Origin: Pleomorphomonas sp. PLEO
GTDB lineage: Bacteria; Pseudomonadota; Alphaproteobacteria; Rhizobiales; Pleomorphomonadaceae
Reading direction: 5' to 3'
DNA length: 64,000 bases
Assembly: GCF_041320595.1 (NCBI RefSeq)
Contig: NZ_CP166625.1
Coordinates: 3,656,001-3,720,000, forward strand
Positions 1 through 11,976 of the stretch are shown piece by piece; positions within the stretch are counted from its first letter, which is position 1; each line of letters begins with the position of its first letter. The translations under genes and the position numbers were made by a program. Under the pieces are notes generated by a model. That model saw only the letters and a list, made by a program, of their open reading frames with translations, was not told where the DNA came from and searched no databases.

Positions 1-1
1 C

Positions 2-1960
2 GGCGCGACGATGACGCGGATCGTGGCGGACGCCGCCACCTGCGACGCCTGCCTTGCCGAATTGTTCGACCCGGCAAGCCGCTATTTCGCCTACCCCTTC
101 GTCAATTGCACCCACTGCGGCCCGCGCTACACCATCACCCGCCGCCTGCCCTATGACCGCCGGCAAACGTCGATGGCCTCCTTCCCAATGTGTCCGGACT
201 GCGCGACGGCCTACACCGACATCCGGGATCGACGCTTTCATGCCGAACCAGTCGCCTGTCCCACCTGTGGACCGAAGCTGAGCCACTCCGTCACCGAGAT
301 CGCATCGGCGATCAAAGCCGGCGGCATCGTGGCGCTGAAAGGCATCGGTGGCTTCCATCTGGTCTGCGACGGTCGTAATGCCGAGGCGGTCGCGGCGCTC
401 CGGGCAAGAAAGGCGCGCGAGTTCAAGCCCTTCGCGGTGATGGTCGCCAATCGTTCTTCCATTGCCCCAGTGGCCGTAGCGTCACCAGAAGAGCAGGCCC
501 TCTGTTCGTCGGTTGCCCGGCCGATCGTGCTGATGCAGGCAAAGCCCGGCGTGCTGGCGCCCGCCGTCTCGCCCGGCCTTTCTCGCGTTGGCGTCATGCT
601 GGCCTACGCACCGGTGCACCATTTGCTGTTCGCAGCTCTCGCGGACCATGATTTTGCCGGCCACGATCCGTACGTCGCCAATAACTTCGTGCTGGTTGCC
701 ACTTCGGCCAACCCCGGTGGTGAGCCGTTGGTGGTGGACGACGCGGATGCGACGCGCCGCCTCGCCGGCATTGCCGACCTGATCGTCACCCACGACCGCG
801 CCATCGTCGTACGCGCGGATGACAGCGTCACACAGGTGATTGCCGGCGCGCCATCTTTCCTGCGCCGGGCGCGCGGCTACGTGCCCGAGCCGATCGCGCT
901 TGCCGAAGATGGGCCCATAACCCTCGCCCTTGGCGCGCATCTCAAATCCACGGTGACGCTGACGCGCGGCCGGGAGGCTTTCGTCTCCCAGCACGTGGGC
1001 GATCTCGACACCGCCGAGACACTGAAATTCTACCGCGAGACCATCCAGCACCTGATCGACATTGTCGGCGTGAAGCCCCAGCTGGTGGCCTCGGACCTTC
1101 ATCCCGACTATCGCTCCAGCCAGATAGCCGAGGAGTTCGGCCTGCCGATCGTGCGGGTTCAGCATCACGCCGCGCACGTGGCGGCAGTGGCGGCGGAAGT
1201 CGGGCACGCCGGACCGGTGTTGGGTCTAGCCCTCGACGGTCACGGTCTCGGCGATGACGGCGGCGCCTGGGGTGGCGAGCTGCTTTTTGTGAGCGGCGCG
1301 GCGCACCATCGCCTTGGCCATCTTGCACCGTTGCCGCTACCTGGTGGCGACCGTGCCGCCCGCGAGCCGTGGCGGATGGGCGCAGGTGCGCTCGCGGCTC
1401 TCGGACAGGCCGATCTCGCGTCAAGCTTCTTTGCCGACCGACCACTGGCTGGGCCGATCGCCGATCGTGTCGCCTCAGGTGCCGATCGGCTTGCTACCAC
1501 ATCGCTCGGAAGGCTGTTCGACGCAGCGGCGGCGCTTTTGGGCGTGCGTGCCGTGCAGGATTATGAGGGACAGGCGGCGATGGAACTGGAGGCGCTGGTC
1601 GACGAACCGGTCGCGCTCGCCGGTGGCTTTGAGATCGAAGGCGGCGTCCTTTCATTCGCTCCGCTTCTTAGCCACTTCACCGTCGCCCGCCCCGATGCCC
1701 GCACCGGCGCATCCCTCTTCCATGGTACTCTGATCGAAGGGTTCACCGCCCTCGCCCACCATGGTGCCATCATGACCGGCCTCAAGTCGATTGCACTCGG
1801 CGGAGGCTGCCTGATGAACCGCGTACTGGCCGAAGGTCTTTCGGCCGCTCTCGTCACGTCCAATCTCACTCCCCTCCTCGCCCGGCGCCTGCCGGCCAAC
1901 GACGGCGGCCTTTCCTTCGGACAAGCCGTTCTCGCGCGCCGAGCCTTCTCGGAGATCTGA
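2..1960 (+). CDS. hypF: Carbamoyltransferase HypF (5'-truncated by window edge)
   Basis: HypF carbamoylates HypE with carbamoyl phosphate and ATP; the group becomes the CN ligands of the NiFe centre. The visible protein begins just before the zinc-finger section (CDAC, CTHC, CPDC and CPTC pairs in the first ~85 residues). A YrdC-like domain follows, then a Kae1-like carbamoyltransferase domain (HPDYRSS near residue 365, then VQHHAAH, and a GGGCLMN stretch near the C-terminus). Full HypF is about 750 residues with an N-terminal acylphosphatase domain. That domain is absent and the frame is open to base 2, so the gene almost certainly starts upstream and the ATG at 11 is internal. hypC follows after 3 bases. 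Confidence 0.95.
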   Translation, partial: GATMTRIVADAATCDACLAELFDPASRYFAYPFVNCTHCGPRYTITRRLPYDRRQTSMASFPMCPDCATAYTDIRDRRFHAEPVACPTCGPKLSHSVTEIASAIKAGGIVALKGIGGFHLVCDGRNAEAVAALRARKAREFKPFAVMVANRSSIAPVAVASPEEQALCSSVARPIVLMQAKPGVLAPAVSPGLSRVGVMLAYAPVHHLLFAALADHDFAGHDPYVANNFVLVATSANPGGEPLVVDDADATRRLAGIADLIVTHDRAIVVRADDSVTQVIAGAPSFLRRARGYVPEPIALAEDGPITLALGAHLKSTVTLTRGREAFVSQHVGDLDTAETLKFYRETIQHLIDIVGVKPQLVASDLHPDYRSSQIAEEFGLPIVRVQHHAAHVAAVAAEVGHAGPVLGLALDGHGLGDDGGAWGGELLFVSGAAHHRLGHLAPLPLPGGDRAAREPWRMGAGALAALGQADLASSFFADRPLAGPIADRVASGADRLATTSLGRLFDAAAALLGVRAVQDYEGQAAMELEALVDEPVALAGGFEIEGGVLSFAPLLSHFTVARPDARTGASLFHGTLIEGFTALAHHGAIMTGLKSIALGGGCLMNRVLAEGLSAALVTSNLTPLLARRLPANDGGLSFGQAVLARRAFSEI

Positions 1961-1963
1961 CCC

Positions 1964-2206
1964 ATGTGCCTTGCCGTTCCCGCCCTCGTCACCGAGCTCC
2001 TGCCCGACAACATGGCCAAGATCAGCCTCGACGGTGTGTCGATGACCATTTCCGTGGCGCTGGTGAAAAACGTCGCTGTCGGCGACTATGTCATCGTTCA
2101 CGTCGGTTACGCGCTGTCCAAAGTCGATCCGGACGAGGCACGACGGACCCTCGACCTGCTCGATGAAGCGCGCGGCGTGCCGCTCGCCGCCGGAGGTGTC
2201 CGATGA
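1964..2206 (+). CDS. hypC: Hydrogenase assembly chaperone HypC
   Basis: An 80-residue protein starting MCLAVPA, the family signature. HypC uses its N-terminal Cys2 to bind HypD and carry the Fe(CN)2CO moiety to the hydrogenase large-subunit precursor. Length and the beta-barrel core (VSMTISVALVKNVAVGDYV) are typical of HypC/HupF. A GGAG lies 9 bases upstream of the ATG. The 3' end overlaps hypD by 4 bases, so the two are probably translationally coupled in a hypFCDE operon. The true client hydrogenase is not in this window. Confidence 0.96.
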   Translation: MCLAVPALVTELLPDNMAKISLDGVSMTISVALVKNVAVGDYVIVHVGYALSKVDPDEARRTLDLLDEARGVPLAAGGVR

Positions 2207-3357
2207 AATACGTCGACGAATATCGCGACGGCGACAGGGCGCGTGACATCGCGGCGGCTATTGCCGCCGAGGTGCGCCCGGACCGTTCCTATGCTTTGAT
2301 GGAGTTCTGCGGCGGCCATACCCACGCCATTTCGCGCTACGGTATCGAGGACCTGCTGCCGAAAAATGTGCGCATGATTCACGGGCCCGGCTGCCCGGTC
2401 TGCGTGCTCCCGATCGGCCGCATCGATGACGCAATACGCTTGGCGAAGCGGCCGGAAGTCACGCTCTGTACCTACGCTGACCTTATGCGCGTGCCGGCCT
2501 CAGGCGGCCTCAGCCTGATGAAGGCCAAGGCGGCTGGGTCCGATATCCGCATGGTCTATTCCTCGCTCGATGCCATACGCATCGCTGAGGCTAATCCCGA
2601 CCGGCAGGTGGTTTTCTTCGCCATCGGCTTCGAGACGACGACACCGCCGACCGCCGTGGCGCTGAAGACAGCCGAGGCCAAGGGCCTCATGAACTTCTCG
2701 ATCTTTTGCAACCATGTGCTGACGCCCGTCGCCATGCGGGCGATCCTCGACATGCCGCCGACGCCGGACGAGCCGCCGATTGCCATCGAGGGCTTCGTTG
2801 GCCCGTCGCACGTCTCCACCATCATCGGCATGGAACCCTATCAGGTGTTCGCGCGCGACTACCGCAAGCCGGTGGTGATCGCCGGCTTCGAGCCGCTTGA
2901 CGTGATGTACGCCATCCTGATGCTGGTGCGGCAGGTCAACGAGCAGCGGGCGGACGTCGAAAACCAATATATCCGAGCCGTCAGGACGGAGGGCAATCCC
3001 GTTGCCATCGAGCTTTGCGATGAGGTTTTCGAGCTGCGCGAAAGCTTCGAGTGGCGCGGTCTCGGTGCCGTGCCGAAGAGCGCGCTGAAGCTGCGCGACG
3101 CCTTCGCCTTCTATGACGCAGAGAAGCGCTTCACCATCGAGACGCAGCCGGCCGAGGACAATCCGGCCTGTGAATGCGGCGCCATCCTGCGCGGCCAGAA
3201 GAAGCCGGCCGACTGCCGCCTGTTCGGCACCGTCTGTACGCCGGAGACGCCGACGGGTGCTTGCATGGTGTCGTCGGAAGGCGCTTGCGCCGCCCACTGG
3301 ACCTACGGCCGCTTCCGTACCCGACAGAGCGATGCCGGCCTGCGGAGAACCGCATGA
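2203..3357 (+). CDS. hypD: Hydrogenase formation protein HypD
   Basis: A 384-residue Fe-S protein, the scaffold on which Fe(CN)2CO is assembled with HypC and HypE. The hallmark motifs are present: CGGHTHAISRYG near residue 36, GPGCPVCVLP near residue 64, and a cysteine-rich C-terminal section (CECGAI, CRLFGTVC, GACMVS, GACAAHW) that holds the [4Fe-4S] cluster and redox cysteines. Length matches the family. It starts inside hypC (ATGA overlap) and ends overlapping hypE in the same way. No truncation or missing cysteine is visible. Confidence 0.97.
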   Translation: MKYVDEYRDGDRARDIAAAIAAEVRPDRSYALMEFCGGHTHAISRYGIEDLLPKNVRMIHGPGCPVCVLPIGRIDDAIRLAKRPEVTLCTYADLMRVPASGGLSLMKAKAAGSDIRMVYSSLDAIRIAEANPDRQVVFFAIGFETTTPPTAVALKTAEAKGLMNFSIFCNHVLTPVAMRAILDMPPTPDEPPIAIEGFVGPSHVSTIIGMEPYQVFARDYRKPVVIAGFEPLDVMYAILMLVRQVNEQRADVENQYIRAVRTEGNPVAIELCDEVFELRESFEWRGLGAVPKSALKLRDAFAFYDAEKRFTIETQPAEDNPACECGAILRGQKKPADCRLFGTVCTPETPTGACMVSSEGACAAHWTYGRFRTRQSDAGLRRTA

Positions 3358-4400
3358 CAAAGACCTTCCGCCGCAAACTCGACTTGAAATCCGGTCGCGT
3401 CGACATGAGCCACGGCGCTGGTGGCCGTGCCATGGCCGAACTGATTTCCTCGATCTTCAAAGACGCCTTCGGTAACGAACTGCTCGAACAGGGTAATGAC
3501 CAGGCGAGCTTCCCGACGCCGGCTGGTGGGCGCATGGTGATGACCACCGACGGCTATGTCGTATCGCCGATCTTCTTTCCGGGCGGCGACATCGGTTCGC
3601 TGGCCGTGCATGGCACTGTCAATGATCTCGCCATGGCCGGGGCAAAGCCACTCTACCTGTCGGCGAGCTACATCATCGAGGAAGGCTTCCCGCTCGGCGA
3701 CCTGAAGCGCATTGCCGATTCGATGGGCGCGGCGGCCAGGGCCGCCGGCGTGATGATCATCACCGGCGATACCAAGGTGGTGGAGCGCGGCAAGGCGGAC
3801 GGCGTGTTCATCTCGACGGCCGGCGTCGGTGTGGTGCCGGATGGTCTCGCGCTATCCGGTGACCGGGCGCGGCCCGGCGATAAACTGATCGTTTCCGGCT
3901 CGATGGGCGACCACGGCGTCGCCATCATGTCGAGCCGCGAGAACCTTACGTTCGAGACGGAAATCCTGTCGGATAGCGCGGCGCTCAATGGCCTCGTCGA
4001 GACCATAGTGTCGGCCGCCGGGCCTCATCTGCGCTTGATGCGCGACCCGACGCGTGGCGGGCTCGCAGCCACGCTTAACGAACTTGCCCATCAATCGGAT
4101 GTCGGTTTCCGCATCGTCGAAGACCAAATTCCGATCAAGCGGCAGGTGGCCGCGGCGTGCGAACTCCTCGGCCTTGACCCACTTAACGTCGCCAATGAGG
4201 GCAAGCTCGTCGCCGTGGTCGCGGCTGAGGCAGCGGAAATGCTGGTGGCCGCCATGCGGACGCATCCGCTCGGGGTGGACGCGGCGATCATTGGCGAGGC
4301 AGTCGAGGATGACCAGCATTTCGTGCAGATGACCACAGGCTTCGGTGGTGGCCGCATCGTCGACTGGCTGGCCGGCGAGCAGTTGCCTCGTATCTGCTGA
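3354..4400 (+). CDS. hypE: Hydrogenase maturation protein HypE
   Basis: A 348-residue AIR-synthase (PurM) family enzyme that dehydrates its C-terminal thiocarboxamide to a thiocyanate for CN delivery. The start used here (MTKTFRR) overlaps the hypD stop as ATGA; a longer open frame from 3174 has no family similarity before this point. The N-terminal SHGAGGRAM motif and the C-terminus ending PRIC, whose last residue is the carbamoylated cysteine, are both present. This is the last gene of the hyp operon; about 380 non-coding bases separate it from the hyf-like genes. Confidence 0.97.
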   Translation: MTKTFRRKLDLKSGRVDMSHGAGGRAMAELISSIFKDAFGNELLEQGNDQASFPTPAGGRMVMTTDGYVVSPIFFPGGDIGSLAVHGTVNDLAMAGAKPLYLSASYIIEEGFPLGDLKRIADSMGAAARAAGVMIITGDTKVVERGKADGVFISTAGVGVVPDGLALSGDRARPGDKLIVSGSMGDHGVAIMSSRENLTFETEILSDSAALNGLVETIVSAAGPHLRLMRDPTRGGLAATLNELAHQSDVGFRIVEDQIPIKRQVAAACELLGLDPLNVANEGKLVAVVAAEAAEMLVAAMRTHPLGVDAAIIGEAVEDDQHFVQMTTGFGGGRIVDWLAGEQLPRIC

Positions 4401-4781
4401 CGCATCCGCGCAATTGCGGCATTCATCTCTCATAATTCAATCTGAATGCCGGACGGATGGACGCCGACTTGCGCTCAGGACGCCGCGACATCCATGCAAC
4501 AGCGGCACGTCATCGGCCCAACTGAATTGATTGAATACCAACAAACAATTTCGGCGGCATCGTTGAGCCGGTATGCTTTGATCAATCCTTGAGTCTTTCA
4601 CGACAGCCGCCTCATCCGACGCCGACACCGGTCGCGCCGGGATCGCGGCTCCCGCACCGTTCGGTGTGGTTCACCGGCGTCAATCGACGCCTCGACGAGC
4701 CGATGCGTGAGCGTCGTTGCACGTCGCTCTCACGGAGCCGCCGGAAGCGGCCCGAAACCCATTCGGGGAACGAAAGTGACA
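4401..4781 (+). other. Intergenic region between hypE and the hyf-like operon
   Basis: About 380 bases without a convincing gene. An imperfect dyad with arms GGCATTCA and TGAATGCC lies just after hypE (about 4417-4450) and could end the hyp transcript. Further on, GG and GC pairs 10 bases apart at 4504-4517 resemble the core of a sigma-54 promoter, but the rest of the consensus fits poorly. A TTTGATCAA sequence near 4577 resembles half of an FNR/FixK-type site without the normal spacer. The hyf-like promoter probably lies here but I cannot fix it. Confidence 0.4.
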
Positions 4782-6800
4782 ATGCCGATCGTAGCGGCCC
4801 TTCTGAGTGTCGCCGGCCTTGCCGGCGTCGCCGTGGTGGCGCCGATCCTCACCGCCCGTCGCGCTGCCTGGGCGACACCCGTCGTTTACGGCGCAAGCCT
4901 CGTCCTTGCCGCCATATTGCTGATGTGTGCGCTCCTTGCCCTTCTAGGTGGCAGCGCCTTTCAGGGCGGCGTGCATTTGCCGGTCGGCCTGCCGTGGATC
5001 GGCGCGTATTTCGTCCTAGATCCTCTCAGTGCCGCCTTCCTCATCATTGTCGACTTCGGCGCAATGGTGGCCTCGTTCTATGCCATTGGCTATGGTGCCC
5101 ACGAGGAGGAGCCGGGTCGCGTGTTGCCCTTCTATCCGGCCTTCCTAGCCGGCATGAATTTGGTGGTCCTGTCGGCCGATGCCTTCAGTTTCCTTGTCGC
5201 CTGGGAGTTCATGTCGCTTAGCTCATGGGCACTGGTGATGGCCCACCACCACGACGCGGAGAACCGCCGCGCCGGCTATGTCTACCTGTTGATGGCGTCC
5301 TTCGGCACTCTGATGTTGTTGCTCGCCTTCGGCCTGCTGGCCGGTCCGGATGGTGGTTATGCCTTCTCGGCCATTCGTACCGCCGAGCATGTGCCTTGGC
5401 TTACAGGCCTCGTGCTGGTGTTGATGTTGCTCGGCGCCGGTTCTAAAGCCGGCCTCGTGCCGCTGCACGTCTGGCTGCCGCTAGCTCACCCCGCGGCACC
5501 GAGCCATGTGTCGGCGCTGATGTCGGGCGTTATGACCAAGGTAGCCATCTACGGCTTCATTCGCGTCGTGTTCGACCTTGCCGGAGAGCCGGCGTGGTGG
5601 TGGGCGGTGCTGGTACTGATCCTGGGGGCGGGATCGGCGGTGCTCGGCGTGCTTCATGCCGTCCTGCAGCGCGATCTGAAACGGCTCCTTGCCTACTCGA
5701 CCGTCGAAAACATCGGCATCATCTTCATCGGCCTTGGTCTCGGTCTCGCCTTCAAGACCAACGACATGGTCGGCGCGGCGGCGCTGGCCGTTACCGCCTC
5801 GATCTTCCACGCATTCAACCACTCGCTGTTCAAAAGCCTGCTGTTCTTCGGCGCCGGTAACGTGCTGACTGGCTCCGGTGAACGGGACATTGAGAAGCTT
5901 GGCGGCCTCGTCCACCGCATGCCGGAGACGGCCTATCTGTTTCTCGGCGGCTGCCTCGCCATATCGGCATTGCCACCGCTCAACGGCTTCGTTTCGGAAT
6001 GGCTGATCCTTCAGGCAATTCTCCTCAGTCCCGACTTGCCGCAGTGGGCGTTGCGCTTCCTGGTACCGGCGTCGGGCGCCATGCTGGCTCTGGCCGCGGC
6101 GCTCGCCGCCGCCTGCTTCGTTCGTGCCTTCGGCATCACCTTCCTCAGCCGGCCACGCTCGCCCGCCGCCGAGACGGCGCACGAGGTCAGCCGCTGGCAG
6201 GTCCGTGCGATGTACGCTCTTCTCGCCGTCTGCCTCGTTGCCGGTGTCTTCCCCGGCCCGTTCCTCGATGCGCTGTCGCCGGTCTCACAGATGCTTGTCG
6301 CCGGCGCGATGCCGAAACAGCCGATCCTGCCGCACCTGTCGATCATACCGATCTCCGAGAGCCGCAGCTCCTATTCCGGCTTCCTGGTCTTCTTCTTCAT
6401 CATGATGGCCAGTTGGGCGGCGATCCGCGTCATTCACAACTTCGCCTCCCGTGCCGTGCGCCGCGCGCCGCCCTGGGACTGCGGCTTTCCCGATGCTTCC
6501 CCGGTTACGCAATACACTGCCGACAGTTTCGCTCAGCCGATCCGCCGGGTGTTCGGCCCGATCGCCTTCCGGGCCAAGGTCAGCCAGACCATGCCCGCCC
6601 CCGGCGACATGGCGCCGGCCAGTCTGACGTTGTCGCTGCGTGATCTGATATGGGAATTCATCTACGCGCCGATCGAGAGCGCCGTGCTCTACGCGGCCGA
6701 ACGGCTCAACATCCTGCAGTTCCTGACGATCCGCAGTTACCTTAGTCTCGTCTTCGCGGCGCTGGTTCTCCTTCTCGTTCTGGTGGCAACATGGGCCTGA
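4782..6800 (+). CDS. hyfB: HyfB-like antiporter-type membrane subunit
   Basis: A 672-residue polytopic membrane protein of the NuoL/M/N and Mrp-antiporter family, the same length as E. coli HyfB. It should form a proton-translocating part of the membrane arm. Conserved helices include LVAWEFMSLSSWALV, the lysine helix GAGSKAGLVPLHVWLPLAHPAAP and the LKRLLAYSTVENIG segment. The ATG at 4782 begins MPIVAALL. A GGGGA at 4765 spaces better to an in-frame GTG at 4776, so the true start may be two codons earlier. It overlaps hyfC by 10 bases. Confidence 0.93.
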   Translation: MPIVAALLSVAGLAGVAVVAPILTARRAAWATPVVYGASLVLAAILLMCALLALLGGSAFQGGVHLPVGLPWIGAYFVLDPLSAAFLIIVDFGAMVASFYAIGYGAHEEEPGRVLPFYPAFLAGMNLVVLSADAFSFLVAWEFMSLSSWALVMAHHHDAENRRAGYVYLLMASFGTLMLLLAFGLLAGPDGGYAFSAIRTAEHVPWLTGLVLVLMLLGAGSKAGLVPLHVWLPLAHPAAPSHVSALMSGVMTKVAIYGFIRVVFDLAGEPAWWWAVLVLILGAGSAVLGVLHAVLQRDLKRLLAYSTVENIGIIFIGLGLGLAFKTNDMVGAAALAVTASIFHAFNHSLFKSLLFFGAGNVLTGSGERDIEKLGGLVHRMPETAYLFLGGCLAISALPPLNGFVSEWLILQAILLSPDLPQWALRFLVPASGAMLALAAALAAACFVRAFGITFLSRPRSPAAETAHEVSRWQVRAMYALLAVCLVAGVFPGPFLDALSPVSQMLVAGAMPKQPILPHLSIIPISESRSSYSGFLVFFFIMMASWAAIRVIHNFASRAVRRAPPWDCGFPDASPVTQYTADSFAQPIRRVFGPIAFRAKVSQTMPAPGDMAPASLTLSLRDLIWEFIYAPIESAVLYAAERLNILQFLTIRSYLSLVFAALVLLLVLVATWA

Positions 6801-7744
6801 TCCTCGCCATCCTCGTCCAGGGCATCCAGATGGTGCTGGTGCTGGCACTCGCGCCAGGCCTCATCGGCTTCACACGCAAGGTGAAAGCGCGCCTCCTGCG
6901 GCGGCAGGGACCGTCTGTGTTGCAGCCTTATCGCGACCTTCTCCGCCTCGTGCGCAAGGAAGCCGTACTGGCCGACAACGCCTCCTGGCTGTTTCGCAAC
7001 GCGCCCTACCTGATTTTCGCCACCACCTGGGTCGCAGCGGCGCTGGTGCCGACGTTTGCCGCCGGCTTGCATTTCTCATGGGCCGCCGACCTGATCGCCA
7101 TCACCGCGCTGCTTGGCTCGGCGCGATTCTTCCTGGCACTTGCCGGCATGGACATCGGGACGGCCTTTGGGGGCATCGGATCGAGCCGAGAGATGCTGTT
7201 CGCGACACTGGCCGAACCGGCGATGATCATGATCGTGTTCACCGTGGCGCTGGTGGCCGGCTCGACGCAGCTCTCGACTGTGGCCGAGTTCATGGTCGAC
7301 CACAGCACACTGCGCGTCTCGCTCGGCCTAGCGCTGATCGGTCTCATCATCGTGGCGCTGACGGAGAATGCCCGTGTACCGGTCGATAATCCGGCGACGC
7401 ATCTTGAGCTGACCATGGTGCATGAGGCCATGGTGCTGGAGTATTCCGGCCGCCATCTCGCGGTGATCGAGCTCGCGGCGGCACTGAAGCTCCTGCTCTA
7501 CATCTCGCTGATCGCCTGCATCTTTGTGCCCTGGGGCATGGCTCGCCAGAACGACGGTGTCCTCGGCATGCTTGTCGGTGTCGTTACTTGGGTCGGCAAG
7601 CTTTCCATCGGCGGCTTCCTGATGGTGCTGTTCGAGACGGCGATTGCCAAGATGCGGGTGTTCCGCGTGCCGGAATTTGTCGGTGGCGCGCTGATGCTCG
7701 GCCTTCTCGGCACGCTGTTGCTATTCGTTTCGCGGAGCTTCTGA
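6791..7744 (+). CDS. hyfC: HyfC-like (NuoH/HycD family) membrane subunit
   Basis: A 317-residue membrane protein of the NuoH/HycD/HyfC family, which links the peripheral redox arm to the membrane arm. Family segments include RRQGPSVLQPYRDLLRLVRKE near residue 38, the acidic loop NARVPVDNPATHLELTMVHE and EYSGRHLAVIE. Length is close to E. coli HyfC (about 315). It starts 10 bases inside hyfB, and its TGA shares one base with the hyfE start, so the genes are tightly coupled. No residue loss was noticed. Confidence 0.93.
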   Translation: MGLILAILVQGIQMVLVLALAPGLIGFTRKVKARLLRRQGPSVLQPYRDLLRLVRKEAVLADNASWLFRNAPYLIFATTWVAAALVPTFAAGLHFSWAADLIAITALLGSARFFLALAGMDIGTAFGGIGSSREMLFATLAEPAMIMIVFTVALVAGSTQLSTVAEFMVDHSTLRVSLGLALIGLIIVALTENARVPVDNPATHLELTMVHEAMVLEYSGRHLAVIELAAALKLLLYISLIACIFVPWGMARQNDGVLGMLVGVVTWVGKLSIGGFLMVLFETAIAKMRVFRVPEFVGGALMLGLLGTLLLFVSRSF

Positions 7745-8406
7745 TGGAACGCTTTTCCCTCGACGCTGCGCATCTTCTGGCTGGCGGCATGGTGCTGGTG
7801 AGCTTCATGATGCTCTATCAGAACCGGCTACTCGGTCTTCTCAACGTCTTCGCGGCGCATGCGGTGGTGCTGTCGCTGTCAGTCGCCTGGCAAGCCTATG
7901 TCCAGTCGGCGCCGCACCTGTTCGTCACCGCTGCCATCGCATTGATTCTGAAAGCGATCATCATTCCGGTGGCGCTACACCACATGGTGCTGCGTCTCGG
8001 TGTCCATCGCGACATCGAAACGGTGGGCGGCATTGGCCCGACCATGCTGATGGGCATCGGCCTCGTGGCGCTGTCCATGGTCGTCATGCTGCCGGCCGCC
8101 GCCGAGGCCGACCCGATCGCCCGCGAGGATCTGGCGCTGGCTCTCTCGGTCATTTTGCTCGGTCTGTTGATCATGGTGACGCGTCAGAACGCCATCAGCC
8201 AGATCGTCGGCTTCATGAGCCTTGAAAACGGCCTCGTCCTAGCCGCCACCGGCGCCCGCGGCATGCCGCTGGTGGTCGAGATCTCCGTCGCCTTCTCGGT
8301 ACTGGTCGCATTCATCGTCATCGGGGTGTTCCTGTTTCGCATCCGCGAGCGCTTTGACACCATCGACACCCAGGCCCTCGACGATTTTCGGGAGGGCCGG
8401 GAATGA
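7744..8406 (+). CDS. hyfE: HyfE-like membrane subunit
   Basis: A 220-residue polytopic protein matching hydrogenase-4 component E (about 216 residues in E. coli). The family is distantly related to NuoK/MrpC at its C-terminal part; SQIVGFMSLENGLVLAATG is the recognisable NuoK-like stretch with its buried glutamate. The start MERFSLDA uses the TGATG junction with hyfC; the same frame is open from 7588 but that segment shows no family similarity. The 3' end overlaps hyfF by 4 bases. Confidence 0.92.
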   Translation: MERFSLDAAHLLAGGMVLVSFMMLYQNRLLGLLNVFAAHAVVLSLSVAWQAYVQSAPHLFVTAAIALILKAIIIPVALHHMVLRLGVHRDIETVGGIGPTMLMGIGLVALSMVVMLPAAAEADPIAREDLALALSVILLGLLIMVTRQNAISQIVGFMSLENGLVLAATGARGMPLVVEISVAFSVLVAFIVIGVFLFRIRERFDTIDTQALDDFREGRE

Positions 8407-9872
8407 TCGCGATTTTGAATATGCTACCCTTTGCTCCAATTGACGCCTTGCTTGTGGTTCCCGGCATCGCGGCGCTCCTTCTCGTCCTGATCCCGCAGTA
8501 CCGGCCCGGCGCCCTCATCAACATGCTGGCGTCCGGCATCACCTTCCTGTTCGCGCTGACACTGCTCGTTGCGCGACCAGACCCAACGGTGAGCTTCCTG
8601 TTCGTCGACGATCTCAATGTCGTCTTCGTGGTGCTTGGCACCTTCGTCGGCTTCACCACTTCGATCTTCTCGGCGAGCTACATCGGTCATGAAATCGAGA
8701 TCGGCCGATTGAAACCGGGCTACATCCGTTTCTACCACGGCATGTATCAAGCACTCTCCTTCTCGATGAACCTCGGATTGACGGCCAACAACATCGGCTT
8801 GATGTGGGTGGCAGTCGAACTCGCCACTCTGACCACCGTACTGATGGTCGGCCTTTACCGCACGCAGGCGGCGCTAGAGGCTGCCTGGAAATACTTCATT
8901 CTCGGTTCGGTCGGCATCGCCCTCGCCCTGTTCGGTACCATCCTGATCTACATGGCCGCCCGGCCGGTGATCGGCGAAGGCCACGACGCCATGGTCTGGA
9001 CGACACTGATCGCCAACGCCAGTGCCTTCAGCCCGGAGTTGCTCAACGTTGCCTTCGTATTCCTGATGCTTGGCTACGGCACCAAAGTCGGTCTCGCACC
9101 GCTGCACGCCTGGCTGCCGGACGCCCATGCCGAGGGTCCGACGCCAATCTCGGCCGTGCTGTCGGGCCTGCTGCTCAACGTGGCGCTCTATGCGCTCCTG
9201 CGCTTCAAGATGCTGCTCGCCGCCAACCCCTTCGCGGTGGCACCAGGACCGCTTCTGGTGACGCTTGGCCTGGTGTCGCTGATCTTCGCGGCATTCATGC
9301 TGTACCTCCGGCGGGACATCAAGCGACTGTTCGCCTACTCATCGATCGAGCATATGGGGCTCATCGCCTTCGCCTTCGGCATGGGTGGACCGCTTGCCAA
9401 CTTCGCCGGCCTTCTGCACATGACCATGCATTCGCTGACCAAATCGGCGATCTTCTTCGCCGTCGGTCAGGTGGCGCAGGTCAAGGGTACGCAAAAGATT
9501 GCTGATATTCGCGGCCTCACCGAGAGCCACCCGACGCTTGGCTGGAGCCTTGTGGTCGGCGTCGCGGCCATCGCCGGCTTGCCGCCCATGGGCATTTTCA
9601 CCAGTGAGTTCCTTCTGGTAAGTTCGACCTTCGCCCGCCAGCCACTGCTCGCCATACCCCTGGTCTTCGGCCTGCTCCTCGCCTTCGGCGCCCTTATCTG
9701 GCGGTTGACAGGCATTGCCTTCGGTACGCCGTCGCCAAGTGTCGTCGACGCCGGCCGACCTCCATCGATGTTACCGCTCATCATTCATCTCGTTCTGGTG
9801 CTGATCGCTGGCATCTACCTGCCCGGCCCGTTGGTTGCCTGGTTCCAGAACGTCGCGCGCATGCTGGGATGA
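8403..9872 (+). CDS. hyfF: HyfF-like antiporter-type membrane subunit
   Basis: A 489-residue second NuoL/M/N-family subunit, somewhat shorter than E. coli HyfF (526). It has about 14 predicted hydrophobic segments. The proton-path motifs are GYGTKVGLAPLHAWLPDAHAEGPTPISA near residue 220 and LRRDIKRLFAYSSIEHMG near residue 300. With HyfB it gives this complex two pump-like subunits. A HyfD homologue, present in E. coli hydrogenase-4, is missing. It starts by ATGA overlap with hyfE and ends 4 bases before hyfG. Confidence 0.93.
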   Translation: MIAILNMLPFAPIDALLVVPGIAALLLVLIPQYRPGALINMLASGITFLFALTLLVARPDPTVSFLFVDDLNVVFVVLGTFVGFTTSIFSASYIGHEIEIGRLKPGYIRFYHGMYQALSFSMNLGLTANNIGLMWVAVELATLTTVLMVGLYRTQAALEAAWKYFILGSVGIALALFGTILIYMAARPVIGEGHDAMVWTTLIANASAFSPELLNVAFVFLMLGYGTKVGLAPLHAWLPDAHAEGPTPISAVLSGLLLNVALYALLRFKMLLAANPFAVAPGPLLVTLGLVSLIFAAFMLYLRRDIKRLFAYSSIEHMGLIAFAFGMGGPLANFAGLLHMTMHSLTKSAIFFAVGQVAQVKGTQKIADIRGLTESHPTLGWSLVVGVAAIAGLPPMGIFTSEFLLVSSTFARQPLLAIPLVFGLLLAFGALIWRLTGIAFGTPSPSVVDAGRPPSMLPLIIHLVLVLIAGIYLPGPLVAWFQNVARMLG

Positions 9873-9876
9873 GACC

Positions 9877-11439
9877 ATGAGCACGCTCCGCACCGCCCTC
9901 CTCAACGCCGCGCTGACCATCGAAGAGCAGAAGCCCTGGCCGCGCGTCACCGTCGACGCCGACACATGGCGGCAGGCGACGCTGGCGATCGCCGCGGGGA
10001 ATGCCACGCTTTCGGGTCTATGGGCCGAACCTCGCGCCGTACACATGGCCGTACTCGACGACGACGACGGCGCACTCATGGTATTGACGCTGGCGACGCC
10101 CGACGGCCGTTTCCCGTCGGTCGGTCTTACGCATCCGCCGGCCCAGCGCCTCGAGCGGGCAATCGTCGACCTTTACGGCCTTCTACCCGAGGGAATGCCC
10201 GACGATCGGCGCTGGCTCGACCACGACCGCTGGGGTGTCCGCGCGCCGCTCGGCGACGGTGCCTTGATCCCGGCCGACGGCGCGCCCTACCCTTTCCTGA
10301 AGGCCGAAGGACCGCCGCTCCACCAGATCGCTGTCGGCCCGGTGCACGCAGGCATCATCGAGCCAGGCCACTTCCGCTTCTCGGCCAATGGCGAGATCGT
10401 CGTGCGGCTGGAAGAGCGGCTCGGCTACGTTCACAAGGGCATTGAGGGGTTACTCACCAACACGACGCTGGAGGCGGCGGCGAAGGTGGTCGCCCGTGTC
10501 TCCGGCGATAGCACAGTAGCCTATTCCTTTGCCTTCGCACGGGCGGCCGAGGCAGCTCTGGGCATCGGCGTGCCGCAACGGGCAATATGGCTGCGCGCGC
10601 TGATGGCCGAACTCGAACGGCTCGCCAACCACCTTGGCGACATCGGCGCCATCTGCAACGACGCCGCTTTCGCATTGATGCTGGCGCATTGCGGCATACT
10701 GCGCGAGGAAGTATTGCGCGCCGCCAAAGCGACGTTTGGCCATCGGTTGATGATGGATCGCATCATTCCAGGCGGCGTAACCTCCGACCTTGACGATGTT
10801 GCGCCGATCAAGGCCCTCACCACACGCATCCGCCAACGTTTCCCCCGCCTTGTCGAACTCTACGACAACACAGCTTCGCTGCAGAATCGCACGGTCTCAA
10901 CCGGTCGCCTTTCGCCCGAACTCGCGCGCCGGTTCGGAGCCGGCGGACCGGTCGGCCGTGCGTCCGGCCGCGCTTTCGATGCTCGAAAGGCGCCCGGCTA
11001 CCCGCCCTATGGCGACCTCGACTTCAAGGTCATCAGGCGGGAGGGCGGCGACGTTGATGCCCGCATCTGGGTGCGTATCGATGAAATCTCTGAAAGCCTG
11101 GAACTGATCGAGCAGATCATTGACCGATTACCGCCCGGGCCAATTGCCTATCCAACGGCGCCGGCGTTGCGCGAACGCAGAGTCCCGCAAGCCGGTGGTC
11201 TCGCGCACGAGCCGCGTGACGGCGCCATGGAAGGGCTTGCCATGGTCGAGAGCTTCCGCGGCGACGTGCTGGTCTGGCTCAGGACCGATGAGACCGGCCG
11301 CGTACTGCGCGGGACCGTGCGCGACCCCTCAGCCTTTCAGTGGCCTCTCCTGGAGGCGGTTATCGAGGGCAACATCGTTGCCGACTTCCCGCTCTGCAAC
11401 AAGTCTTTCAATTGCTCCTATTCCGGGCACGACCTTTGA
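9877..11439 (+). CDS. HyfG-like large subunit lacking Ni-Fe ligands (Ehr-type)
   Basis: A 520-residue fusion of a NuoC-like N-terminal part (about 1-140) and a NuoD/hydrogenase large-subunit domain. HFRFSANGEIVVRLEERLGY and HKGIEGLL are typical of HycE/HyfG. Where hydrogenases have the first ligand motif (ICGxC), this protein reads ARVSGDSTVAYS, with no cysteine. The C-terminal motif (DPCxxC in enzymes) is replaced by a tail ending FPLCNKSFNCSYSGHDL. There is no cleavable extension, so no endopeptidase processing is expected. I therefore call it an energy-converting-hydrogenase-related subunit; it cannot bind the usual NiFe site. The start MSTLRT lies 4 bases after hyfF. Confidence 0.9.
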   Translation: MSTLRTALLNAALTIEEQKPWPRVTVDADTWRQATLAIAAGNATLSGLWAEPRAVHMAVLDDDDGALMVLTLATPDGRFPSVGLTHPPAQRLERAIVDLYGLLPEGMPDDRRWLDHDRWGVRAPLGDGALIPADGAPYPFLKAEGPPLHQIAVGPVHAGIIEPGHFRFSANGEIVVRLEERLGYVHKGIEGLLTNTTLEAAAKVVARVSGDSTVAYSFAFARAAEAALGIGVPQRAIWLRALMAELERLANHLGDIGAICNDAAFALMLAHCGILREEVLRAAKATFGHRLMMDRIIPGGVTSDLDDVAPIKALTTRIRQRFPRLVELYDNTASLQNRTVSTGRLSPELARRFGAGGPVGRASGRAFDARKAPGYPPYGDLDFKVIRREGGDVDARIWVRIDEISESLELIEQIIDRLPPGPIAYPTAPALRERRVPQAGGLAHEPRDGAMEGLAMVESFRGDVLVWLRTDETGRVLRGTVRDPSAFQWPLLEAVIEGNIVADFPLCNKSFNCSYSGHDL

Positions 11440-11454
11440 GGCGGACGACCGACC

Positions 11455-11976
11455 ATGCGTAGAATGCTGCTCGAGGGTCTTTTTCGACGGCCGGTGACCG
11501 AGAGGGCGCCGACGGTTGCGGACGCCGAGATCGATGCGCTGGCCGCGCGACTCGGTGTTGCCGCCAAGGCGCGGCTTGGCCGCAGCCTCTCGATCCGCGA
11601 GGTCGACGCTGGCTCCTGCAACGGCTGCGAGCTGGAAATCCACGCTCTCAATAACAGTTACTATGATGTCGAGCGCTTCGGCCTGCGCTTCGTCGCCTCG
11701 CCGCGCCACGCCGACGTATTGATGGTGACCGGACCGGTCACGGCCAACATGCGCGAAGGTCTTGAACGCACCTATGCCGCAATGCCGGCACCCAAATGGG
11801 TGGTGGCGATCGGCGACTGCGCCGCCGGCTGCGGTGTGTTCAGCAAGAGCTACGCGGTGATCGGCGCCGTATCGGAGATTATTCCGGTTGATCTCACGAT
11901 CCCAGGCTGTCCACCCGAACCGATCGACATGCTGAAGGGGCTGGTGGGCCTCGTCGAGGCGAGCGCGCGCGGCTAA
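11455..11976 (+). CDS. hyfI: HyfI-like small subunit ([4Fe-4S] N2-type, NuoB family)
   Basis: A 173-residue NuoB/HycG-family protein. The four ligands of the proximal cluster are intact: Cys55 and Cys58 (CNGCE), Cys122 (GDC) and Cys152 (PGCPP); a further cysteine at 126 is nearby. It should pass electrons to, or receive them from, the site under the large subunit. The E. coli operon adds the polyferredoxin subunit HyfH and the chaperone HyfJ; neither is here. It ends convergently with, and overlaps by 4 bases, the squalene/phytoene-synthase-like gene. Confidence 0.94.
   Translation: MRRMLLEGLFRRPVTERAPTVADAEIDALAARLGVAAKARLGRSLSIREVDAGSCNGCELEIHALNNSYYDVERFGLRFVASPRHADVLMVTGPVTANMREGLERTYAAMPAPKWVVAIGDCAAGCGVFSKSYAVIGAVSEIIPVDLTIPGCPPEPIDMLKGLVGLVEASARG

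Follow-up and report, generated by a model that had tools for sequence, protein, structure and literature searches.

A hydrogenase-4-like Hyq operon without Ni-Fe ligands follows the hyp genes in Pleomorphomonas sp. PLEO

The closest described counterpart of the operon analysed in this work is Hyq of Azorhizobium caulinodans, encoded by the hyqRBCEFGI operon and, among the literature titles listed, treated only in three papers (PMC2650096, PMC2930871, PMC3357923). The text of these papers available to us reports that expression of hyq depends on NifA, and that the loss of hyq makes diazotrophic growth about one fifth slower and hardly changes growth on ammonium. The deletion allele used there takes out the regulator as well. 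In nodules, the hupSL hyq double mutant is reported to evolve 27 µmol H2 per g per h, and the wild type and both single mutants 0.30–0.36 µmol H2 per g per h (PMC2930871). The same paper states that H2 recycling occurs in strains without the whole hup/hyp operon, as well as in Rhodocista centenaria, which is without hup/hyp, and it describes hyq as unlinked to hup/hyp and as generally absent from non-diazotrophs. A nifK hupSL strain gives off much H2, which its authors credit to Hyq (PMC3357923). By the authors' own word, in the same available text, no cell-free assay exists, and earlier conflicting work is cited by them. That Hyq has lost both CxxC motifs was published in 2012 (PMC3357923); the ligand loss that we describe below is accordingly not a new observation.

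Energy-converting-hydrogenase-related (Ehr) complexes have been described as group 4-like, with their Ni-Fe ligands lost and with antiporter-like subunits (PMC6349859, PMC10284858), and the HydDB classification places Ehr among the relatives that do not metabolise H2 (PMC5037454). In Pyrococcus furiosus, MBS/Mbx is related to group 4 but has no Ni-Fe site, and a reaction at its proximal [4Fe-4S] cluster has been proposed; MBS keeps two of the four ligand cysteines, lacks E21 and has a three-cysteine proximal cluster (PMC7684303).

The window, a stretch of 64,000 nucleotides, comes from the genome of Pleomorphomonas sp. PLEO, which consists of one contig of 5.48 Mb. On the + strand, it begins inside hypF (1..1960; TIGR00143 of NCBIfam, 628 bits on the ORF 11–1960), whose start lies upstream of the window and whose frame runs on into the flanking sequence (L009); there, upstream of hypF and on the same strand, are genes for hydrogenase small and large subunits. 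An ORF of 80 aa follows (1964..2206, +), probably a hypC to judge from its length and its place between hypF and hypD. The product of hypD (2203..3357, +; TIGR00075, 478 bits) is the sole HypD match in the genome, and hypE (3174..4400, +; TIGR02124, 453 bits) lies in an ORF that exceeds the matched part (residues 75–408). Directly after hypE come six closely packed genes, also on the + strand. The first, hyqB (4782..6800), encodes a HyfB/NuoL-like antiporter subunit (NF005086, hydrogenase 4 subunit B, 845 bits; 62% identity to A. caulinodans HyqB), with an in-frame GTG at 4707, upstream of the start at 4782. It is followed by the HyfC/NuoH-like hyqC (6791..7744; PF00146; 77% to its A. caulinodans counterpart), whose stop is overlapped by the ATG at 7744 of hyqE (7744..8406), a HyfE-like, NuoK-related gene (71%; NF008556 at 81 bits, which is under its cut-off). 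Next comes hyqF (8403..9872), coding for a HyfF/NuoM-like antiporter subunit (NF005043, hydrogenase 4 subunit F, 832 bits; 69%). An open frame of 520 aa, from ATG to TGA, is hyqG (9877..11439), whose product, a large subunit without Ni-Fe ligands, joins a NuoC-like to a NuoD/HycE-like domain (PF00329 and PF00346; 58%). The last gene, hyqI (11455..11976), codes for a small subunit (PF01058) with the cysteines for one [4Fe-4S] cluster (C55, C58, C122 and C152). A squalene/phytoene synthase gene lies after hyqI on the opposite strand, at 11973, and between hypE and this gene we found nothing besides the six hyq genes: no HyfA, HyfD, HyfH, NuoI or NADH module.

The six subunits and their order hyqBCEFGI are shared with A. 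caulinodans Hyq, with identities of 58–77%. The A. caulinodans genome was found by a published primer (in one of the 391 genomes of the family), and of five published primer sequences tried on the stretch retrieved, four match (Prox, C, Dist and, in its core, B) and primer A does not. The CxxC motifs are missing in both systems; unlike the window, A. caulinodans has hyqR and is reported to carry hyq away from hup/hyp. The closest HyqG relatives found are those of four Pleomorphomonas genomes (88–91% identity) and of one metagenome-assembled proteobacterium (92%). Hydrogenase-4 and formate hydrogenlyase of E. coli resemble the operon in their NCBIfam models (two of its membrane subunits match those of hydrogenase 4 best), in the HycE fold and in the small-subunit CxxC, whereas their Ni-Fe ligands, HyfA, HyfD and HyfH genes and C-terminal extension have no counterpart in it. 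Complex I has a homologous membrane arm and a NuoC–NuoD fusion fold, and likewise no Ni-Fe ligands, but it differs from Hyq in the tandem cysteines of NuoB, in the NADH/NuoI module of its operon and in the residues H38 and Y87, none of which Hyq has.

HyqG was aligned with HycE, HyfG and NuoCD of E. coli and with a CooH-type group 4 hydrogenase and NuoD from the same Pleomorphomonas genome, and the alignment was extended to 105 HyqG rows (the window, 80 relative loci, 23 loci from a class sample and A. caulinodans). At the columns where HycE, HyfG and CooH have four cysteines, HyqG has S209, S212, S514 and G517 (SSSG). The original prediction held that both ligand motifs had been lost. For the first motif this is what S209 and S212 show; for the second the loss stands and the register does not, as FPLCNKSFNC had been taken for the replacement and the ungapped alignment gives S514 and G517 of SFNCSYSG. 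The combination SSSG occurs in 100 of the 105 rows, and SASG, CSSG, SSAG, SSTG and STSG once each; four cysteines at these columns were found in none of the 105 rows, and one cysteine in a single row. In an AlphaFold model of HyqG alone (mean pLDDT 79), values under 50 are found at 139–144, 146–186, 430–447 and 498–520, which covers the second ligand motif. The absence of a C-terminal extension, to which the prediction had also pointed, is real, but it is not diagnostic, since the CooH-type large subunit of the same genome (1015663–1016712, - strand) has four cysteines and no extension either.

Could HyqG still be a genuine [NiFe]-hydrogenase that uses other ligands, such as serine or a shifted cysteine? 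C507 and C513 occupy non-ligand columns, and C513 stands one residue ahead of the ligand column of S514; C260 is present in 103 and C513 in 101 of the 105 rows, and both are found in 17/17 rows of a distant second Hyq lineage, which gives 333–367 bits to the window HyqG (rows L135, L136, L138–L142, L144–L146, L148, L150–L153, L155 and L156). The near invariance and the position of these cysteines would suit such a protein. It is nonetheless extremely improbable, given that most hyq+ genomes lack HypD (see below) and that C507, invariant according to the 2012 paper, is L or I in 6 of the 105 rows and N or V in all 17 rows of the second lineage. We also rejected a strict three-cysteine metal site made up of C258, C491 and C497 of A. 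caulinodans, which are called completely conserved in the available text of PMC3357923: these are conserved in 103, 99 and 101 of the 105 rows, respectively, and the 491 column is the one that is replaced throughout the second lineage. The first and third cysteines may still play a role.

Loss of the ligands has not been followed by decay. S209, G210, D211, N512, S514 and G517 are each present in at least 98% of the 105 rows, and E162, which aligns with E21 of MbhL, is found in all of them and in all 17 rows of the second lineage. That lineage is also invariant (17/17) at S209, G210, D211, N508, K509, N512, C513, S514 and G517, and at the second ligand column (S212) it reads S in 12 rows, A in 2, C in 2 and M in 1. 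Against five close relatives, dN/dS of HyqG is 0.052–0.073, at dS 0.6–1.2. Because dN/dS is low, the new motifs are conserved and the pump residues are kept, the site of HyqG is rebuilt and not decaying. The pump residues in question are lysines, glutamates and histidines of the antiporter subunits HyqB (71 rows) and HyqF (79 rows), which are conserved with HyfB/HyfF and partly with the Nuo subunits, and acidic residues of HyqC (74 rows), conserved with HyfC and again partly with the Nuo subunits. As had been predicted, the small subunit retains its cluster cysteines, with C55, C58, C122 and C152 each present in 88 of 89 HyqI rows, and its CNGC motif is of the hydrogenase type, the tandem CC of NuoB being absent. 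In comparison with MBS, a sulfane sulfur reductase, Hyq keeps E162 and every cysteine of the cluster, and its operon is without an input gene like MbsN. Two further observations concern these subunits. The one departing row among the 89, a HyqI-like match in L046, reads S, S, E and N at the cluster columns, perhaps through a sequencing mistake, a false match or a genuine substitution, and HyqC has H204 in 74/74 rows, where HyfC, HycD and NuoH have a glutamate.

In a tree of 57 rows, built with the ligand columns left out and rooted on NuoD by assumption, NuoD stands apart from all group 4-like rows (100/100), the 38 Hyq rows form one clade (100/100) and nine group 4a HycE/HyfG rows form another (100/99). 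The sister relation of Hyq to HycE/HyfG is weakly supported (93/48), and the program flags long branches meeting there. In this tree Hyq falls with the hydrogenases and apart from NuoD, though not inside the clade of the HycE/HyfG rows sampled. The best solved fold for HyqG is HycE of formate hydrogenlyase (7z0s_E, TM 0.79), and HycE is also the best match by sequence. From the tree and the fold match, the descent of Hyq from a group 4 hydrogenase, outside the sampled group 4a clade, is most likely. The ligand loss and the antiporter-like subunits match the published descriptions of Ehr complexes (PMC6349859, PMC10284858), as far as these are available to us, so that the Ehr reading of the original prediction is supported by sequence features and may be refined to the named Hyq complex; this likeness is one of features and not of the tree, whose rows are without Geobacter or Nitrospira Ehr references.

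Which genomes carry hyq? We sampled 289 alphaproteobacterial genomes evenly, asking for a completeness of at least 90%; 24 were hyq+ (HyqG with at least 397 bits, the next match having 142), and these were compared with 31 hyq- genomes picked from the same families. HypD is absent in 17 of the 24 hyq+ genomes and present in that of the window; its occurrence in 7/24 hyq+ versus 0/31 hyq- genomes gives a Fisher p of 0.0017 with kinship ignored, and in families with both kinds only, a count that drops 10 of the 24 hyq+ genomes (five families without a negative partner), 5/14 versus 0/31 gives p 0.0016, again with kinship ignored. For nifH over the cut-off the figures are 4/24 versus 0/31 (Fisher p 0.031, kinship ignored) and, in the families with both kinds, 2/14 versus 0/31 (p 0.09, kinship ignored), so that the excess of nifH in hyq+ genomes is no longer clear in these families. 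Among the 80 hyq loci, 29 belong to genomes that we took as isolates, and HypD is absent in 12 of these, Rhizobium johnstonii 3841 being one, and NifD in 9. In R. johnstonii 3841, Sphingopyxis and Afipia, the sole PF00374 match is HyqG itself. To our knowledge, Hyp proteins including HypD are needed for every known [NiFe] site, and hence Hyq in the HypD-less genomes is no [NiFe]-hydrogenase of a known kind. The CxxC pair, dependence on Hyp maturation (judged by HypD), a place in the 4a clade and multi-cluster subunits are all traits of group 4a [NiFe]-hydrogenases that Hyq does not have, and the complex encoded in the window is no [NiFe]-hydrogenase. NCBIfam labels the membrane subunits of Hyq as hydrogenase 4, yet most of its sampled alphaproteobacterial carriers are without HypD.

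A role tied to nitrogenase was rejected as the general function of Hyq, as nifH is found in only 4 of the 24 hyq+ genomes and nifD is absent in 9 of the 29 isolates. The statement that hyq is absent from non-diazotrophs (PMC2930871, in its available text) disagrees with the present genome samples. The excess of HypD in hyq+ genomes hints at some tie to H2. What is new here is the absence of HypD and of nifH in most of the sampled hyq+ genomes, together with the hyp-adjoining operon in a genus where the usual regulator was not found. The genome that carries the window also has two [FeFe]-hydrogenase catalytic domains (5051335–5052204 and 1035977–1036831), beside HupL-like and CooH-type large subunits, and three nifH matches over the NCBIfam cut-off (4724974, 5309698 and 4147101), which may include alternative nitrogenases.

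We propose, with a probability of about 0.5, that Hyq is a Hyq-type Ehr complex acting as an energy-converting carrier:quinone oxidoreductase that works from one [4Fe-4S] cluster. A hydrogenase-4-like ancestor would have kept its membrane and electron-transfer core and swapped its Ni-Fe site for a new constrained pocket, with S209-G-D211, N261-D262, D294, E493 and N508-K509-S-x-N512-C513-S514-Y-x-G517 as the putative pocket motifs and with the proton-path residue E162 kept. Hyq would be a redox-driven, probably reversible proton pump, in which the single HyqI cluster could carry electrons between two partners, one a diffusible low-potential species and the other an oxidant, most likely a membrane quinone bound in a HyqG/HyqC chamber, and HyqC, HyqE, HyqF and HyqB would couple electron transfer to proton movement. 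At the level of sequence, the kept cluster, the conserved motifs and the kept pump charges argue for redox-driven ion translocation; that the motifs line one pocket, and likewise the direction, the donor, the quinone acceptor and the pumping, we infer. As the window operon lacks a HyfA-, HyfH- or NuoI-type input subunit, electrons must reach the complex either through a partner whose gene lies elsewhere or from a substrate bound in the pocket. In complex I of T. thermophilus, H38 and Y87 hold the quinone head group; they correspond to I161 and G210 of HyqG in the ungapped part of an alignment with 2fug_4, and so lend no support to a quinone substrate. The absence of an electron-feeding partner among the genes found and the commoner occurrence of HypD in hyq+ genomes count against our proposal, and its main obstacle is the nodule H2 genetics of A. 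caulinodans together with the H2 recycling that is stated to persist after loss of hup/hyp. The want of an electron-input gene in the window operon and the conserved charged residues of the antiporter subunits would also suit an ion translocator or sensor in which the cluster merely gates, with no net redox catalysis; such a device is unlikely, in that the strict conservation of the cluster ligands and of the new motifs argues for chemistry.

A more electron-centred alternative is that Hyq supplies low-potential electrons, the proton motive force lifting quinol electrons to ferredoxin or flavodoxin, so that the H2 phenotypes would be indirect. We consider this doubtful, and as tentative the further step that in A. 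caulinodans the recipient is nitrogenase. Nitrogenase that is starved of electrons yields relatively more H2, which would account for H2 phenotypes of this sort, and the pump residues that such an electron lift would use are kept. The NifA-dependent expression of hyq and the slower diazotrophic growth of hyq mutants, reported for A. caulinodans, point the same way. However, nodules of the hupSL mutant, which has hyq, are reported to release almost no H2, though nitrogenase must make some, and 20 of the 24 hyq+ genomes are without nifH.

The original prediction regarded the catalytic function as unknown. What Hyq does is indeed disputed, but a published claim of bidirectional H2 activity exists, and it takes the form of an H2:quinone oxidoreductase, or 'endo-hydrogenase', which, having no Ni-Fe site, would need to handle H2 either at the [4Fe-4S] cluster or in the new pocket. 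The phenotypes of the A. caulinodans deletions, in culture as well as in nodules, speak for it, as does what is stated about hup/hyp-deleted strains and Rhodocista centenaria. So do the genome contents of A. caulinodans: we found five PF00374 matches, namely four at 661.7–673.4 kb, taken for the hup operon, and HyqG; a PF02906 search gave no [FeFe]-hydrogenase, and the sole HypD lies at 676.7–677.7 kb, adjoining the hup matches, so that the reported deletion of hup/hyp probably removed HypD too. An operon without an input subunit fits a gaseous substrate, E162 is kept in all rows, and in Pleomorphomonas the operon stands after hyp genes. Even so, we hold this explanation to be improbable: the authors themselves report no cell-free assay and cite conflicting earlier work, and nitrogenase H2 cannot be the general substrate when so few hyq+ genomes have nifH. 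Moreover, we know of no H2 uptake by a plain [4Fe-4S] protein. If the statement on H2 recycling after hup/hyp loss holds, it would lead, with a single HypD beside hup, to a hydrogenase without a known site, in which H2 would pass in or out at a [4Fe-4S] cluster facing a polar pocket (E162, D211, N512 and C513), with proton pumping; we rate this specific mechanism as very unlikely. Should Hyq be a hydrogenase, it would represent a new way of handling H2; should it be none, as the carrier:quinone oxidoreductase that we favour would imply, the published part of legume-nodule H2 recycling needs another explanation. In either case, a relative of complex I that 24 of the 289 sampled genomes carry is without a proven substrate, and the genome content of its carriers clashes with the published physiology.

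The hyq operon lies 0.3–0.45 kb behind hypE (between match ends) in 7 of 81 loci, which are the window, four other Pleomorphomonas loci, Oryzibacter and one metagenome-assembled bin (L012). No match to hyqR was found in the window or in L009, nor was the gene found in the hyp-adjoining loci. Over the 80 loci, 50 carry hyqR no more than 2 kb ahead of hyqB and none was found in 20; in the other 10, the DNA is too short or hyqB is missing. Across the 81 loci (ORFs of at least 80 aa), only a regulator-like family recurs close by besides hyqBCEFGI. With antisense shadow ORFs set aside, no family beyond hyq and the regulator-like gene that could point to a partner occurs in more than 21 of the 81 loci, and the one family that reaches 21 is found on either strand. 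Simple patterns for a NifA box and a sigma-54 site matched neither the window nor A. caulinodans, where PMC2650096 reports both; there (L126), the sites missed by our patterns are placed about 420 bases upstream of hyqR. In L160, which has an operon of the second-lineage type, hyqB is closely preceded by an HTH-cupin gene, and L158 and L164 look similar by eye. A pyridine nucleotide-disulphide oxidoreductase gene begins 5 bases after hyqI in L160 (11051–12457), with an apparent Rnf-like cluster further downstream, and the gene after hyqI in L159 differs from it. Finally, L164 carries a tandem pair of HyqB-like ORFs (1407–5521), one of which perhaps encodes an extra antiporter subunit.
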